A stretch of DNA of 64,000 nt from Agarivorans sp. TSD2052 (GTDB lineage: Bacteria; Pseudomonadota; Gammaproteobacteria; Enterobacterales; Celerinatantimonadaceae): NCBI RefSeq assembly GCF_023238625.1, contig NZ_CP096670.1, positions 795,501 to 859,500 of the forward strand, in the 5' to 3' direction. Each line of letters opens with the position of its first letter. Within the stretch, counting starts at the first letter, position 1. Both the position numbers and the translations under genes were made by a program. This document shows, piece by piece, positions 32,707-39,335 of this stretch. The notes below the pieces were generated by a model. It was not told the DNA's origin, ran no database searches, and saw nothing but the letters and a program-made list of their open reading frames with translations.

Positions 32707-32734
32707 GCTAAATCCTTCGTTAATTAGGCAAAAA

Positions 32735-32764
32735 TTACCAAGTTTTCTCTCTCGGTAGTATACT
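32735..32764 (+). promoter_or_regulatory. candidate original dusA promoter
   Basis: ttacca, 18 bases, tatact: a moderate sigma-70 match 122 bases before the truncated dusA start. It probably drove dusA before the insertion. Inferred from spacing only. Confidence 0.4.
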
Positions 32765-32885
32765 ATCCGGCTAGCGATTCGTTAGCCTAGCATGTTGCTA
32801 TTGATGTTTGTTTGACCATACTCAAAGGGGTAGGGTCATAAACGTAAAGTACCTACTTAATTTTTCTTTTTATGTGTTGAGCCCC

Positions 32886-32945
32886 ATGACTGAAGTTTCC
32901 CTGTTCCAACCCCATCGTTTTTCGGTAGCCCCGATGCTCGATTAA
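32886..32945 (+). pseudogene. dusA: 5' remnant of the original dusA, cut off by an insertion
   Basis: The frame reads [19 protein letters not shown] and then [12 protein letters not shown] is the invariant N-terminal segment of DusA, where the intact gene continues WTDRHCR. The last nine codons match the dusA start at 38373 base for base except one, and in the same reading frame. This is the chromosomal dusA beginning, separated from its body by about 5.4 kb of inserted DNA. It cannot make an enzyme. Confidence 0.88.
32916..32943 (+). repeat. left attachment site (attL) in dusA
   Basis: 28 bases, beginning cgtttttcggtagcccc and ending atgctcgatt, match 38373-38400 at 27 of 28 positions (G/C difference at 32933). 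Position inside the 5' coding end of dusA fits the known target of dusA-specific tyrosine recombinases. Confidence 0.88.
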
Positions 32946-32970
32946 TAGGATTATAAAAACTAATCCTATT
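32944..32970. repeat. inverted repeat abutting attL
   Basis: aataggatta and taatcctatt are perfect 10-base inverted copies separated by 7 bases, starting directly after the att core. It may be a recombinase or excision-factor site, or a structure that stops transcription from the dead dusA promoter. Confidence 0.7.
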
Positions 32971-33240
32971 TTAATCAGAACATTACAAGTCAGTTTTTCT
33001 TTGAGGGGGCAATTTGGAGACGAAATGCTTCTTCAATGACCTTTCTATCGTCAAAAAATTCACTGCAATAGCATCATCTCACTTCTGAAACACATTCAAT
33101 CTTGGTTGGGATGATTGTAAATCTTAACGCCAATAACATTTTCTCTAATTCTTTCTTTAGTAACAGTGGCTGACTCTAAGTTACCAGAATCACTCTATCT
33201 ATTGCGCTCGCAAACGCTTTGAGAAACAATAACTCCAAGG
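32971..33240. other. gene-free start of the inserted element
   Basis: 270 bases with stops in all frames and no recognisable product. An integrase would be expected close to an att site, but I find no trace of one here. Confidence 0.5.
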
Positions 33241-33263
33241 TGTAATCAAGCCAATTGATTACA
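33241..33263. promoter_or_regulatory. palindrome upstream of the PrtN-like gene
   Basis: tgtaatca-agccaat-tgattaca is a perfect 8-base inverted repeat with 7-base spacer. It ends 14 bases before the start codon, beside the ribosome site. This suits an operator for a dimeric repressor. Confidence 0.55.
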
Positions 33264-33276
33264 ATTTGGAGAAAAA

Positions 33277-33506
33277 ATGATCCCCAATTTCAAAAAACTT
33301 GATGCTCGGATGATGTTGTTCATTATGTTGGTATGTTCCCGGTGATTCCTGAACGAGATATTGCTGTGGAGTATCTAGGAATGTCTCCCAATACAGCTTT
33401 GAAAAAAGCGAGAGAGCAAGCGCAGCCACTACCCACTTTTCGTTTGGGTGATAGTGAGAAGGCTGACAGGGTTGTCAGTATTCACCATAGGTCGCGTGTT
33501 TCATAA
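33277..33506 (+). pseudogene. frameshifted PrtN-like (pyocin-activator family) regulator
   Basis: A GGAG ribosome site precedes an ATG that reads MIPNFKKLDARMMLFIM and then hits a stop at 33343-33345. In the next frame, from about 33330, the protein goes on GMFPVIPERDIAVEYLGMSPNTALKKAREQ and PLPTFRLGDSEKADRVVSIH, which matches small PrtN-family regulators. The frame change lies near 33325-33332 and would be fixed by a few inserted bases. The end (HHRSRVS, then stop) also looks shortened. PrtN-like proteins are small DNA-binding regulators or excision-factor-like proteins in mobile elements. The gene is close to attL, where a directionality factor would be expected. Confidence 0.75.
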
Positions 33507-33533
33507 TGGTATCAAAATGAGAGGGAAATAAGG

Positions 33534-33560
33534 AAAAAGCCCTGCGATGCAGGGCTTTGT
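33534..33560 (-). terminator. terminator after the large lipoprotein gene
   Basis: agccctgc-gat-gcagggct gives a perfect 8-bp stem. On the minus strand it is followed by UUUUUCCUU. It lies 30 bases past the lipoprotein stop. Confidence 0.88.
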
Positions 33561-33589
33561 ATTACGTGTAATGTAGTTAGCTACTGTGA

Positions 33590-36500
33590 TTATTTAGTTT
33601 GTGCAACGTTAGGTTGAATACTGTATTTAACAGACTCTTGATACTTGTTGTTTGAAGTACCAATGATGCTATATAAAGTAGCACTTTCACCTTTGGTGCC
33701 ATATACCGTTCTAGGGATAGTAACCGAAGCACTACCTTGAGCTTTATTACTACATGTCGAGTTGTAATCAGCCTTATCGCCAGAGCTTAACCAAAACGAT
33801 TCGAAGTAATCAGAAATAAGCGAACAAGTCACGTCATCACCATCAACGGCTTTCTCAAAGGTTATTGTGGCGTTTGACTCGGTCAAGCTAAGAGTAACTT
33901 GACCGAATTGAGAGTAGCCATCTCGGTTGGTAGGCAGGTAGAAACCCAAGCTATTATCACCTGCATTCGAACTCGCATTTAATCGCGCTTCGACAGCAGC
34001 TTTATCAGTAAAGTGCTCTTTTCGCTCGCCATATGAAACAACCGATAAGGCACCCTGCGATAGCTCACTAGCATCGCCAATCACGGTGTATGTGGTCGAA
34101 TAGAAACCAGCATTAACCTTAATGTTTGCACTTGCTGCATCGATAGTGTAACTGCCTTCTACAACCAGATCGGCATCTGTAGGGCAGGTCGTATTATTCG
34201 AAGCATTACGTTGGTTAACGTAGTACTCGCCATTTTCAAACTTGAATGCATCACACCATACAACTTGATGCGTTAAGTCGACTTCTCCATTAGAAGAGCC
34301 ATGCTCAGTCAAGAAAAATGTTTTCCCTTCGAGCAAGTTAGGATCTAGAGGTGAAGGTAGCGTTGACTTGGGATCCCATACAGTATTGATACTTCGCAAT
34401 AGAGCATCATCGGTAGACTCTAATACGATATCAACTTTTTGACCGATCTCATCTCCGTGTTGACCAACAACAATACGTAACTCACCTTGATTAAATTGGC
34501 GCATGTAATGTTGTTCGTAGTCGGCAGAATTCAGTGAGTTGTAACTCAACAGCTCTTTACCATCACCCGAAGTTGAAATTTCCCAAGTACCAGTCCAATG
34601 CATAGGTAGTGAACTGCCGTAACCATCTAGTTCGCGAGCTTTGAAGGTGCCTGATTTTGTCACCTCTGATGAGTAGATACTCTGCTGATTAACAGTAAAG
34701 TCCGCGCTGAGAAAACGCACTTCATCAGCACCGGAGCTGTCATCCCAGTCCATGCTTTGATAAACGGTGTTATCCATCGCAGGGACAGGTAGCATCGCGT
34801 TGAATGGCAAGTTTTCAGTCGAGTCTAACCAAAACAAGTCGTTTTCAATTTTGAATACAACCTGATAGTCGCCATTGTTTTCTGATGTATAAACAGGTGT
34901 ATAAACTTCTCCGTCACCTAGTAATGTGCCATCCGGTTGGATTTCAACAGGCCAGCAATCATCACTGTTCGGGCTGATAATAAGTGTTTTATTTTCGGGT
35001 AACTCTAGTTGAGCGAGTTGTTGCGGTGTCGCAATATCAATACTTTTCTTCCAACAGAAGTAGTGCTGATCTTGGCTTTTCATCAATGAAGCCCAACCCA
35101 TCTCTAGGTCAAATTCATCTTCACCAATCTCACCCATACGCCACTCACCGCCAATAAAGTGTCTCTCTTCAAAGCGTGCGGCTGGAGCGGGTACTACAGG
35201 GTCTGTAGGTTCTGAAGAGTCCTGTTCTGCTACAGGTACAGTAAACAATGCCAATTCAGGAGGGTTCACACCATCATCTGCATAGAGCTTGAGATTGGCA
35301 TCACCTGAAGATTCAGGTGTGCCTGTTAGCGTAAGAGTTGAACCATGAATGGTTGTATTGACCCCTTCGATCGTATGTTGCGCTGTTAGCGTCAACACAT
35401 CGTCATCTATAAACAGTTGGTCAAGATTAATATCGCTATTAACAACATTACCAACCTGCAAATTAAGCGCTGTTAGCTCATCGGCTATACGCTGTTGCAC
35501 TTCGGTGTTGAGTTCTGGTGCTGCATTCGGTGCTTCTGCAACATTTAGCTTTAGGAGGGCGCTTACTGAAGGGTGATGGTCATCATTCGCTGTCACGTGA
35601 AATGTAAATACACCTTCTTGCTCTGGTGTTCCTATAATATGCAGCTCAGCGCTTTCGTTATCAGCATTGATGCTTAAGCCATTCCCTGTGACGTCTGTTA
35701 CGTCGTAAGTCAAGACGTCGTTGTCTGCATCGATAAATAAGTTGTTAATCGATACACGTTCATCAACACTTTGGGTTGCCGTTAGATTTAAAGCATCAAG
35801 GTCGGACTGTACGGTATTTTGCTCATTCAATACTGGCGCAGTATTGGGTGTAAATATTTCAACTTCAATGACCAAGGGGTAAGAGCGAGAAACACCGTCA
35901 GAGGCATAGGCCAATACATTGTGAACACCCGTTTCCGTTGGCGTGATAGTGAGAGTTGAGCCCTCAATGAGTGCTCCAGCTTTGTCTTGTGCATCAACTG
36001 AATAAGTCAGAACATCGCTAGTATCTTGATCAGAAAATAGTGCGGAGAGATCGTAACTAACTGATTCGCCAAGTTCAAACGCTTCTGGCTGCGAGAACTC
36101 TAGATTAACGCTCGGGCGATGGTTTGTCTCAATACCTTGATAGCCATTTTCATCAGTATGAACAATTGGAGCATAATCATCACTTAGCTCTTGGGTTTCA
36201 TCGGCAATAATGTCTGATGTTTCTTGTGAAATAGCTGAAATAACGCTTAGCTGATCTTCAACGTCAACAAGTACATCATCATTATCTACTAACGTTTCAC
36301 CAACAACGTTGACCGCTTTAGCTTTTTCTGCTTCTTCACCTTCTCCCTCTGCTACTGCAACGTAATCGCCAAAAATGTCTTCAGCGGTATAAACCACATT
36401 GTCATTGATATTGAAGGACTCAACAACCGCTTGTTCGGCCTCTTCTTGTGTCATTTTAGTGCCATTTTCTTCGGCATACTCTATCTGTTCGACAACAAGG

Positions 36501-36871
36501 TTAGTCATTGGACTGACAATGACTGGCTCGTCAGCGCTTTCTGGTACAGAAGGGGCCGCAAGGGTAAACTCATCAACAACAACCCCGCGGGTGATATCAA
36601 TCGTTTCGCTTGGGATGGCTGTAATGCACACCTTTTGATCAATAATGTCATCTGTAAGGTCAAGCGTTAGTTGACCATTTTGATCGGTGGAGCCTTTGTA
36701 AATGTCACAGTTATCACCGATATAGACTTTAGCTTTATACAGGTAACCGTCAATTGCTGTTATCGTGATTTGTTCTGGCGTTGGAGTAGGATTAGATTGG
36801 TTTGAGTCATCGCTACCACAACCGGACAGCGCTAGTGTCATCGCCGTTGCTAAGAAGCTTATTTTTTTCAT
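33590..36871 (-). CDS. large surface lipoprotein with cadherin-like repeats
   Basis: 1093 residues. The signal peptide ends in the lipobox LSGC (cysteine about 18), followed by a low-complexity linker (SNPTPTPEQ), so the protein is lipid-anchored. Residues about 35-95 look like a small carboxypeptidase-regulatory-type beta domain. Three dystroglycan/cadherin-like repeats follow (about 255-345, 347-450, 455-555), each with an NxAPxL start and LFxDxDxDxLTY calcium-type loops. The tryptophan-containing C-terminal half (about 570-1090) is unlike anything I can name. An AAGGA lies 9 bases before this ATG; the ATG three codons earlier would have no spacing. It diverges from a LysR gene and is cargo of the dusA element. 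A role in adhesion or surface defence is possible but not shown. Confidence 0.82.
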   Translation of the reverse strand: MKKISFLATAMTLALSGCGSDDSNQSNPTPTPEQITITAIDGYLYKAKVYIGDNCDIYKGSTDQNGQLTLDLTDDIIDQKVCITAIPSETIDITRGVVVDEFTLAAPSVPESADEPVIVSPMTNLVVEQIEYAEENGTKMTQEEAEQAVVESFNINDNVVYTAEDIFGDYVAVAEGEGEEAEKAKAVNVVGETLVDNDDVLVDVEDQLSVISAISQETSDIIADETQELSDDYAPIVHTDENGYQGIETNHRPSVNLEFSQPEAFELGESVSYDLSALFSDQDTSDVLTYSVDAQDKAGALIEGSTLTITPTETGVHNVLAYASDGVSRSYPLVIEVEIFTPNTAPVLNEQNTVQSDLDALNLTATQSVDERVSINNLFIDADNDVLTYDVTDVTGNGLSINADNESAELHIIGTPEQEGVFTFHVTANDDHHPSVSALLKLNVAEAPNAAPELNTEVQQRIADELTALNLQVGNVVNSDINLDQLFIDDDVLTLTAQHTIEGVNTTIHGSTLTLTGTPESSGDANLKLYADDGVNPPELALFTVPVAEQDSSEPTDPVVPAPAARFEERHFIGGEWRMGEIGEDEFDLEMGWASLMKSQDQHYFCWKKSIDIATPQQLAQLELPENKTLIISPNSDDCWPVEIQPDGTLLGDGEVYTPVYTSENNGDYQVVFKIENDLFWLDSTENLPFNAMLPVPAMDNTVYQSMDWDDSSGADEVRFLSADFTVNQQSIYSSEVTKSGTFKARELDGYGSSLPMHWTGTWEISTSGDGKELLSYNSLNSADYEQHYMRQFNQGELRIVVGQHGDEIGQKVDIVLESTDDALLRSINTVWDPKSTLPSPLDPNLLEGKTFFLTEHGSSNGEVDLTHQVVWCDAFKFENGEYYVNQRNASNNTTCPTDADLVVEGSYTIDAASANIKVNAGFYSTTYTVIGDASELSQGALSVVSYGERKEHFTDKAAVEARLNASSNAGDNSLGFYLPTNRDGYSQFGQVTLSLTESNATITFEKAVDGDDVTCSLISDYFESFWLSSGDKADYNSTCSNKAQGSASVTIPRTVYGTKGESATLYSIIGTSNNKYQESVKYSIQPNVAQTK

Positions 36872-37029
36872 TGTGTACATCCTTCGTACATTGATTTATA
36901 GGTATTGCTTTATTTGAATTTTTCTGGAATGTAACAATCCAGTAATGTCCGATGAGTTTAATTTTTCTAGATAAAAAACTGATACTATTAGATATAATTA
37001 TTTTTATATCTAATTGGTAAGCTATAAGT

Positions 37030-37944
37030 ATGAAGTCGAGTGAGTATCATTTGTTAGCTGTTTTTGCGGCAGTAGTTGAAGAGCGAAAGTACACGAAGGT
37101 AGCTAAGAGATTAGGCATTACTCAGCCGTCAGTCAGTCAAAGTGTCACTAAACTGAGAGATATCTATAATGACCCACTTTTCATAAGGGAAAAGTTAGGC
37201 GTTAGACCGACAGAGTTTGCGTTAGAAATATACCCCGATATTGCGGATGCAATTTCAAGATTAGACGCACTATCTGCTACAAGGACTCAATTTGACCCTA
37301 AGTCGAGCAAGCGTGTATTTAGAATTTCTACTATAAGTCTTTTTGAGCACACTTTAATTCCAAATCTTTTTAGGAGAGTAGAGGAAGAGGCTCCGCATGT
37401 AACGCTTCTGGTTGAAAATCACAGCACCAAAGAGACTAAAGATATGTTACGAGGAGGCAGTATTGATATTGCGATCGAAGGGGTTGTCAAAACACCACCT
37501 TTTATTAAGTCTCAAACATTTTACGATGATGAGTTGGTAGTGGTCTGTGGTAAGAACCATCCATTGTTTTCGAAAGGAACTATTTCAGAGGAGGAGTTTT
37601 TAAACAATCAACATATCACTCTTTCAAGTCTCTCTGACAACGCGAATTTTTTCGAGAGTTTTTCTCCCCATAGTGTAGAACTATTAAAGAAACGAAGAGT
37701 TAAACGGCAGGTCGCAAGTTATTGGGGGTTGTTATCTTCAGTTAAAAATAGTGATAGTTTGGCTATTTTCTCTCGTAAAATGGCGGTTTCGAATATTGAT
37801 TTGTTCAACTTAAAAATATTGGATAATGACTTTATCGACCAAAAAGTCGAAGCATCGATTTATTGGTCAAAATCGAGAAATGTTGATCCCTCGATAGTCT
37901 GGCTGATTAATAAGGTCAAAGAAGCTTCTATTTGTTCTTTATAG
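37030..37944 (+). CDS. LysR-family transcriptional regulator
   Basis: 304 residues. The N-terminal helix-turn-helix (about 8-66) reads LLAVFAAVVEERKYTKVAKRLGITQPSVSQSVTKLRDIYNDPLFIR. The substrate-binding domain begins near 92 (KRVFRISTISLFEHTLIPNLF) and includes GGSIDIAIEGV. The DNA is visibly richer in A+T than the flanks and uses AGA, ATA and AGG codons freely, unlike neighbouring core genes, which indicates foreign origin. The start lies 158 bases from the divergent lipoprotein start. LysR proteins usually control the adjacent divergent gene, so the lipoprotein is the likely target. The effector is unknown. Confidence 0.92.
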   Translation: MKSSEYHLLAVFAAVVEERKYTKVAKRLGITQPSVSQSVTKLRDIYNDPLFIREKLGVRPTEFALEIYPDIADAISRLDALSATRTQFDPKSSKRVFRISTISLFEHTLIPNLFRRVEEEAPHVTLLVENHSTKETKDMLRGGSIDIAIEGVVKTPPFIKSQTFYDDELVVVCGKNHPLFSKGTISEEEFLNNQHITLSSLSDNANFFESFSPHSVELLKKRRVKRQVASYWGLLSSVKNSDSLAIFSRKMAVSNIDLFNLKILDNDFIDQKVEASIYWSKSRNVDPSIVWLINKVKEASICSL

Positions 37945-38357
37945 TCGCAGGGCTAGATATCTTCTGCGGCATCAACCTAACCTCCGCGTGTGACAACTAG
38001 CGCCGCCTAAAGGGAGACGCGTAGTGTCACAGGTTAGTGGATGGTCGAAATAAAATCAGTATGGGTGCTGTTCTTGCCTGCTTTTTCGATTGTTGCTTTT
38101 GTCATTTCGAATCTCTTAGTCATTGTGAAAGTTTCAAAGTGAGAGATCAAATAAACACCTTTGCAGTTGCAATTGAAGCAACCCCATTACGGCTGTATAA
38201 TCCTCCGCCTTATGTTCGTAAGGGGGACGACGTTGTCCCCTAAAATGACTACTATTTGTCCCTCAGTGCTAAACAAAGCTAGAATCGGACAAAATATAGA
38301 ACAATACAAAGCGGCAGGATGTGCGCTGTGTTTTTGAATTTAAAAGAGGTTCTTGAT
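37945..38357. other. gap between lysR and dusA, right end of the element
   Basis: 413 bases. Contains an imperfect inverted repeat near 37978-38036 (taacct...tgtgaca / tgtcacaggtta), a sigma-70 promoter at 38173-38201, a hairpin ggggac-gacgtt-gtcccc at 38223-38240, and a 41-codon frame at 38212-38337 without a ribosome site. No integrase is visible. Confidence 0.55.
38173..38201 (+). promoter_or_regulatory. sigma-70 promoter for the rebuilt dusA
   Basis: ttgaag, 17-base spacer, tataat. The -10 is a consensus match. It lies inside the inserted DNA about 156 bases before the dusA ATG, so the element appears to supply the promoter that now drives dusA. Confidence 0.7.
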
Positions 38358-39335
38358 ATGCACTCATCATCCCGTTTTTCGGTAGCCCCCATGCTCGATT
38401 GGACCGATAGACATTGCCGTTTTTTTCATCGTTTGATGAGTAAGCAGACTTTGTTATATACCGAAATGGTTACAACAGGGGCGATACTTCATGGTAAAGG
38501 TGATTATTTAGGGTTTTCTGAGCAAGAACACCCAGTGGCCTTGCAGTTAGGGGGCTCTAACCCTAGTGAGTTAGCTGAGTGTGCAAAGCGCGCTGAAGAC
38601 CTAGGCTATGATGAAGTTAACCTGAATGTAGGCTGCCCATCTGATCGGGTGCAAAACGGCCGGTTTGGCGCTTGCTTAATGGCTGAGCCTAGCTTGGTGG
38701 CAGAGTGTATTAGCACTATGCAGCAGCAAGTGAATATTCCGGTTACCGTGAAAACGCGAATTGGCATCGACGAGCAAGACAGTTACTCGTTCCTACGTAC
38801 GTTTATCGATCAGGTTGCCGCGGCGGGCTGCGAAACCTTTATTATTCATGCGCGCAAAGCGTGGCTATCGGGCTTAAGCCCTAAGCAAAATAGAGATATC
38901 CCCCCTTTAGACTACTCTCGGGCTTATCAAGTGAAGCAAGATTACCCGCAGCTAACTATTAGTGTAAATGGTGGTATTACTAGCTTAGCGCAATCGCTAG
39001 AACATTTAGAGCACTTAGATGGCGTAATGATGGGGCGTGAGGCTTATCATAACCCTTACTTATTGGCGGCGGTTGACCAGCAAATTTTTGCCAGTAAAGA
39101 AGCCAGCTTAACCCGTCACCAAGTGGCCGAATTAATGCTCCCTTATATTGAGCAGCACCTAGCGGCTGGTGGCCGTTTACAGCATATAAGCCGTCATATA
39201 TTAGGTTTATTTCAAGGCTGTGTGGGGGCTAGAGCGTGGCGTAGACATTTAAGTGAAAACGCTCACAAAAGCGGTGCCGGTATCGACGTGATGCATGCCG
39301 CTTTAGCCTTAGTGCCCGAGGGGGTAAGCGCTTAA
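38358..39335 (+). CDS. dusA: tRNA-dihydrouridine(20/20a) synthase DusA
   Basis: 325 residues. This flavoprotein reduces uridine 20/20a in the tRNA D-loop. [41 protein letters not shown] opens the TIM barrel. [21 protein letters not shown] holds the catalytic cysteine (about 97), and [17 protein letters not shown] and SVNGGI are DusA-type blocks. An AGAGG 8 bases before ATG 38358 decides the start; the open frame upstream to 38319 is not used. The first five codons (MHSSS) differ from the original start preserved at 32886, because the element replaced the 5' end. The enzyme itself looks complete. Confidence 0.96.
38373..38400 (+). repeat. right attachment site (attR) in dusA
   Basis: Second copy of the 28-base direct repeat, 27 of 28 identical to 32916-32943. 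It lies at codons 6-15 of the intact dusA and is followed by the native sequence encoding WTDRH. Confidence 0.88.

Follow-up and report, generated by a model that had tools for sequence, protein, structure and literature searches.

Results

Genes and repeats at the dusA locus

The window, i.e. the whole 64-kb stretch of Agarivorans sp. TSD2052 DNA that was analysed, carries a dusA gene preceded by a divergent pair of genes for a lipoprotein-like protein and a LysR-family regulator, and this pair is enclosed by two copies of a 28-base direct repeat, identical at 27 of 28 positions and 5457 bases apart from start to start (Table 1). The interval between the copies (32944-38372) is about 5.4 kb long. 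On the plus strand of the window, no two 28-mers other than these copies differ at one position or fewer, and among 20 sequences of equal length generated by a first-order Markov model none contained such a pair. The first-pass annotation had described this repeat at both ends of an insertion of about 5.46 kb, each copy lying inside the 5' coding part of dusA, the left one with the original dusA start still in frame and followed by a stop codon; all of this is borne out, apart from the length, which is about 5.4 kb between the copies, as is the presence of a lipoprotein/LysR pair, which accounts for the two long open reading frames (ORFs) of the interval. The four further ORFs that reach at least 60 aa (68-79 aa) matched no Pfam family above the cut-off, and no conjugation or mobilisation gene was seen in the interval in the ORF list or in the Pfam and PHROG searches. 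The G+C content of the element (41.5%, with 38.0% in lysR and 43.5% in the lipoprotein gene) differs modestly from that of the window (44.5%).

Table 1. Features of the dusA locus, in window coordinates.
Feature	Position	Strand	Description
Displaced original dusA 5' end	32886-32945	+	ATG at 32886, 19-codon frame, TAA at 32943-32945; resembles the dusA start of G002-G005
Left attachment repeat (attL)	32916-32943	+	27/28 identical to 38373-38400
Putative PrtN/RdfN-type fragment (recombination directionality factor, excisionase), 57 aa	33333-33506	+	About 390 bases inside attL
Terminator-like stem after the lipoprotein gene	33536-33558	-	Weak
Lipoprotein-like protein, 1096 aa	33590-36880	-	LSGC lipobox (by eye), putative Ig (He_PIG) domain PF05345
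LysR-family regulator, 304 aa	37030-37944	+	Both LysR domains; divergent to the lipoprotein gene
Candidate right arm of the island	38172-38357	+	Directly precedes the new dusA start; short spacer matches
dusA with the MHSSS... start	38358-39335	+	Open throughout; 5' end probably from the element
Right attachment repeat (attR), within dusA	38373-38400	+	27/28 identical to 32916-32943

Two secondary structures were noted in the interval. The first is a 17-base inverted repeat at 33233-33271 (88% complementary, fold of -19 kcal/mol), just upstream of the PrtN-type fragment, and is perhaps an operator. The second is a strong hairpin at 37956-38045, of -28 kcal/mol as RNA in a calculation made without shuffle control, directly after the lysR stop codon and near the position where an integrase would be expected; an integron attC site was considered for this hairpin and rejected, the second box giving no fit by eye. 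The scan for terminator-like sites returned three in 5.75 kb, for 4.5 expected in shuffles, and the promoter scan nine, for a shuffle mean of 12.8; both counts fall below the shuffle means, and these scans prove nothing.

The dusA product matches the NCBIfam model NF008774 with an E-value of 1.5e-163, above the cut-off. Compared with the dusA genes of five same-genus genomes (G001 to G005), it shows 86% amino acid identity, for a nucleotide identity of 74-75% and an identity of 44-47% at third codon positions. As the changes are mainly third-position ones, the gene is as expected under purifying selection and, from this comparison of sequences, looks constrained. Among the matches listed there were at least 80 further dusA loci, the best being from Aeromonas with 73-74%, versus 86-87% for G001 to G005.

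Uninterrupted dusA genes in the same genus

The search for dusA covered 40 genomes, the window's own included, and gave a match in 39; six of the others belong to the same genus (G001 to G006). In four of these six, G002 to G005, dusA is uninterrupted and the interval is absent. The corresponding N-termini, MTQVSPYQPH (G002), MTQVLPYQAH (G003), MTQVSPFQAH (G004) and MTKDLPYQAH (G005), follow the pattern MTQ/MTK...Q(A/P), each leading into the same 12 residues, and resemble the left remnant in the window. BLAST comparison of these four loci with the window yielded matches to the left of the insertion and then a jump to 38373, with no row in the interval; the segment 32861-32943 was also matched by G003 and G004, with no row at threshold from G002 and G005. 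When the two flanks of the window were joined and aligned with the four loci, the alignment ran continuously through the att site in all of them. In these four relatives, dusA thus begins like the left remnant and the interval is absent, as the first-pass annotation had anticipated, and the short left frame, far from being conserved as a separate gene, corresponds in G002 to G005 to the start of dusA itself.

G006, the sixth genome, is likewise free of any insertion, yet its dusA begins MHPPLRFSIAPMLD, an MH-type start, so that an MH start alone is no proof of an end supplied by an island. As to the proposal that the right copy joins a new MHSSS start to the whole gene, the joined frame is indeed open from 38358 to 39335, and its start would have been supplied by the element. 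The dusA gene of G006 (L033) is apparently frame-shifted around residue 190 in the genome record. Upstream of dusA, G001, G002 and G004 have a 212-aa gene, to which G005 shows a diverged match and G003 a partial one; it has no match in the window (32710-32880 region) or in the G006 stretch.

A complete island at the same site and a PrtN-type fragment in the window

In the remaining genome, G001, this site is occupied by a complete dusA island, with two copies of the att motif 12,777 bases apart. Its left end retains the old dusA start and, just inside the left repeat, encodes a 124-aa PrtN protein (PF11112, E 1.4e-18); at its right end, a 381-aa tyrosine integrase encoded on the minus strand adjoins dusA (PF00589, E 2.4e-16), and the new dusA start reads MKYPSSRFSV. 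The large ORFs of this island resemble type I restriction-modification genes, as named by eye. When the ORFs of the G001 island were compared with the window's element by tblastn, PrtN was the only convincing match.

This match falls on an open 57-aa frame, of which about 50 positions are aligned and which is of doubtful completeness. The frame was recognised by Pfam PF11112 (E 3.8e-8, 33.8 bits for a cut-off of 24.2, profile positions 12-62 of 74), by phrog_1300 'excisionase' (E 6.3e-10) and, in searches restricted to this segment, by a six-frame comparison with a profile built on seven PrtN proteins of islands (E 5.1e-13) and by tblastn with the G001 PrtN (8e-9). NCBIfam gave no match for the fragment, nor did it for the intact G001 PrtN. 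In the dusA islands of Vibrio, this gene bears the name rdfN and encodes the directionality factor that excision requires (PMC8409611). The putative PrtN/RdfN fragment had escaped the first-pass annotation and, as identified by these profiles, strengthens the case for a dusA island. For the left non-coding part, the comparison with dusA loci returned one 27-base match (E 0.02), which lies in the space separating attL from PrtN in the G001 island, in opposite orientation, and was disregarded.

Search for an integrase and for the right arm

The first-pass annotation had seen no integrase in the interval, and the tyrosine-recombinase searches confirm this. A profile of 11 island integrases compared with the six frames of 32801-38500 (stops as X, HMMER filters off) gave a best E-value of 0.82, tblastn with the same 11 proteins against the same segment a best E-value of 0.15, and tblastn with the G001 integrase against the element no row up to E 10; a decayed integrase in the element was consequently rejected. 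Since no integrase trace is left, it is the insertion site and the PrtN fragment that speak for an integrase-bearing ancestor, and since no integrase of the dusA-associated integrase (DAI) family adjoins dusA, we file the element as a decayed derivative and not as a complete member of the family.

In the loci possessing a full-length integrase, some 130-270 bases separate the start of the integrase gene from the aligned dusA start downstream of it, and the integrase gene points away from dusA; in the window, 414 bases without integrase separate the lysR stop from the dusA start. Part of this spacer resembles sequences found before dusA in other genomes: 38196-38291 matches the spacer between integrase and dusA in Vibrio harveyi L077 (E 1e-4, 70% over 101 columns), 38172-38212 that of G147/L136 (E 0.045, 78% over 41 columns), and 38292-38357 a Xenorhabdus locus, L116 (E 4e-4, 73% over 67 columns), in which a stretch of 2.5 kb revealed no integrase. 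Weaker matches, with E-values of 0.065 and more, came from loci both with and without integrase, and elsewhere in the window's genome the spacer has one further match (its positions 189-231, 79%, E 0.037). These alignments are short, and on them the segment before dusA is a likely candidate for an island arm.

Paired att sites at dusA in the order

Of 394 genomes of the order screened with a degenerate att motif, 250 contained it at least once; the motif is strict, 144 genomes having no match, and the counts that follow are therefore lower bounds. Two or more copies were found in 21 genomes. In 12 of them two copies share contig and strand and lie no more than 60 kb apart, in G123 they lie 523 kb apart, and in eight they are on different contigs. 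In nine of the 12 pairs, an ORF of 350 aa or longer next to dusA encodes an integrase; G115 has an integrase fossil with eight stops, and no integrase was detected in the window and in G153. PrtN-type ORFs occur in seven of the 12, the window's fragment apart, the ends alone having been examined for the five longest elements.

Among the 80 dusA loci listed, five of which extend less than 2.5 kb upstream, integrase sequence transcribed away from dusA lies within 2.5 kb upstream in 21, several times in pieces. A second att copy (at most 6/25 mismatches, flank up to 8 kb) was found in two of the 80: Vibrio bivalvicida (L065), with an att pair of 7.7 kb and a split integrase, and Vibrio sp. Hep-1b-8 (L088), with an att pair of 4.1 kb and a C-terminal piece of the integrase only.

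Several of these loci deserve a brief description. In G153 (L137), the att copies at 1091 and 11183 delimit 10.1 kb in which no integrase or PrtN was found; by eye, some of its ORFs are sugar-metabolism/PTS-like, and one, in pieces, is reverse-transcriptase-like. G115 (L133) carries tandem dusA islands, the integrase fossil adjoining dusA within a 2.7-kb segment and a second, broken integrase lying to the left of the distal att copy. In L077 (Vibrio harveyi NBRC 15634), and likewise in G147, two successive integrase-family matches on the minus strand are found within 2.5 kb upstream of dusA, which for L077 suggests tandem islands or two recombinases.

Discussion

The reading we propose, to which we give a probability of about 0.93, is that the 5.4-kb stretch is a decayed dusA-specific genomic island from which the integrase and an intact directionality factor have disappeared, and in which the lipoprotein/LysR pair and a repaired dusA persist. 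The main case is made by the repeats, the empty sites, the G001 island and the PrtN fragment, and the last three of these lend support to the initial suggestion of a remnant of a dusA-targeted integrative element. The survey of paired att sites, the integrase sequence upstream of dusA in 21 of the 80 loci, the architecture described in PMC4482086 and the constraint on dusA also speak for this reading, whereas the lack of an integrase trace, the shortness of the right-arm matches, the MH-type start of G006, the open frame of the PrtN fragment and the other tyrosine recombinases of the genome count against it. The triggering event would be the integration of an island, by its own tyrosine integrase, into the conserved dusA codons for RFSVAPMLD. 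The first dusA codons of the host would thereby have been displaced to the left end, where they would form the dead frame of 19 codons, and the island would have given dusA a new 5' end that left DusA intact; the survival of DusA with first residues supplied by an island is consistent with the description of such islands by Farrugia et al. 2015 (PMC4482086). A later shrinkage would have removed the integrase gene, which normally adjoins dusA, and would have reduced the PrtN/RdfN directionality gene to a fragment, an order of losses that we infer. The remainder would be the divergent lipoprotein/LysR pair held between two nearly identical att sites. Judging from its gene content, an element deprived of integrase and of a complete RdfN would be unable to excise by itself and would in this sense be trapped.

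The lipoprotein/LysR pair may have been original to the island or may have arrived later. It is conceivable, though we lean against it, that a chromosomal pair moved in secondarily through a recombination that replaced the integrase end. Matches to the lipoprotein were obtained in four of the 40 genomes, the window's own (G000) included, and in G005 a LysR gene and a lipoprotein gene also stand divergently, at a different position of the chromosome, next to an ABC-F-type gene and a purB-like gene (by eye); furthermore, the pair of the window ends just where the integrase would be expected. Secondary entry is nevertheless opposed by the low identity to the G005 pair (37-40% for the lipoproteins and 25% for LysR) and by the lack of a second copy in G000, where the lipoprotein has one match. 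The divergent pairing recurs, and these similarities hint weakly at a common origin of the two pairs.

The element may instead be a non-autonomous and mobilisable one resembling a CIME, with att sites that still function, which the integrase of a related dusA island would excise in trans or by accretion, a proposal that we regard as unlikely. It is favoured by the near identity of the att repeats (27/28), by the full-length integrase of the family in a same-genus genome, and by the tandem structures at dusA, in G115 and in the tandem pair reported in Vibrio (PMC8409611). It is disfavoured by the content of the window's own genome. The att motif has two copies there and hence forms no tandem, and tyrosine recombinases are present (10 PF00589 matches), yet the search for a trans-acting integrase of the dusA type found none: the G001 integrase gave a best E-value of 0.045, and an alignment of seven island integrases, which retrieves the G001 enzyme, itself one of the seven, with an E-value of 2.9e-163, gave 6.7e-8, 1.0e-7 and 6.6e-5, which all fall on other tyrosine recombinases and cover the catalytic end only. 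Could the element still be a working recombination substrate, which incoming dusA islands, such as the one known in this genus, could excise or in which they could land? We doubt it. If so, integrase-less dusA cassettes flanked by att sites would constitute a hidden shared pool of cargo, invisible to surveys based on the integrase.

The two copies of a dusA segment might also evoke an error of assembly or a duplication of the dusA 5' end in tandem, in place of an integration. Either is most improbable, as the likeness of the copies is confined to 28 bases, the genome is a single contig with both copies at the places given, the interval is absent from G002 to G005, and the PrtN fragment is an island feature.

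In conclusion, we regard the locus as the decayed remnant of a dusA island. Its kind is already known, and it is a clean but ordinary case. Within one genus, a single locus is found empty, occupied by a complete island and occupied by a stripped one, a series leading to the end of such an element, in which dusA, with a start that would come from the island, stays open after the mobility genes are gone. As dusA islands have been catalogued through their integrase, decayed ones devoid of it are easily missed. Our literature search found no paper devoted to integrase-less dusA remnants, and the text of PMC4482086 places 48 of 94 dusA islands among the prophages and counts 46 'GEIs and phage remnants'.

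By its gene content, the element can be likened to the CIMEs (cis-mobilizable elements), whose classical size is 1.2-13 kb (PMC7563491) and which keep att sites without working recombination or conjugation genes. The window element is within this size range and has lost its recombination genes, and between its retained att sites it holds the lipoprotein, LysR, the PrtN fragment and the four short Pfam-less ORFs; unlike a CIME it stands alone, without tandem, and the likeness implies neither an ICE nor an IME ancestry. The short or integrase-poor att pairs at dusA of L065, L088, G115 and G153 resemble it, with the differences that the first three keep integrase pieces and that the cargo of all four, by eye, is another. 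With the G001 island it shares the att site, the displaced start and a PrtN gene near attL, and it differs from that island by the latter's length of 12.8 kb, its integrase beside dusA and its restriction-modification-like ORFs. The closest known systems are the dusA-specific genomic islands, or DAI elements, of PMC4482086. In that set, assembled through the integrase, the integrase is universal and none was found in the element described here; the mean size is 42.6 kb and the smallest island measures 4758 bp, for 5.4 kb here; and a PrtN-type gene is present in 60 of the 94 islands, for a fragment in the window. The att repeats described there are imperfect, with a 21-bp consensus and 26-28 bp in two strains, and the islands have the architecture found in the window, with the site in the 5' end of dusA, the old start at the far end and a new start provided by the element.
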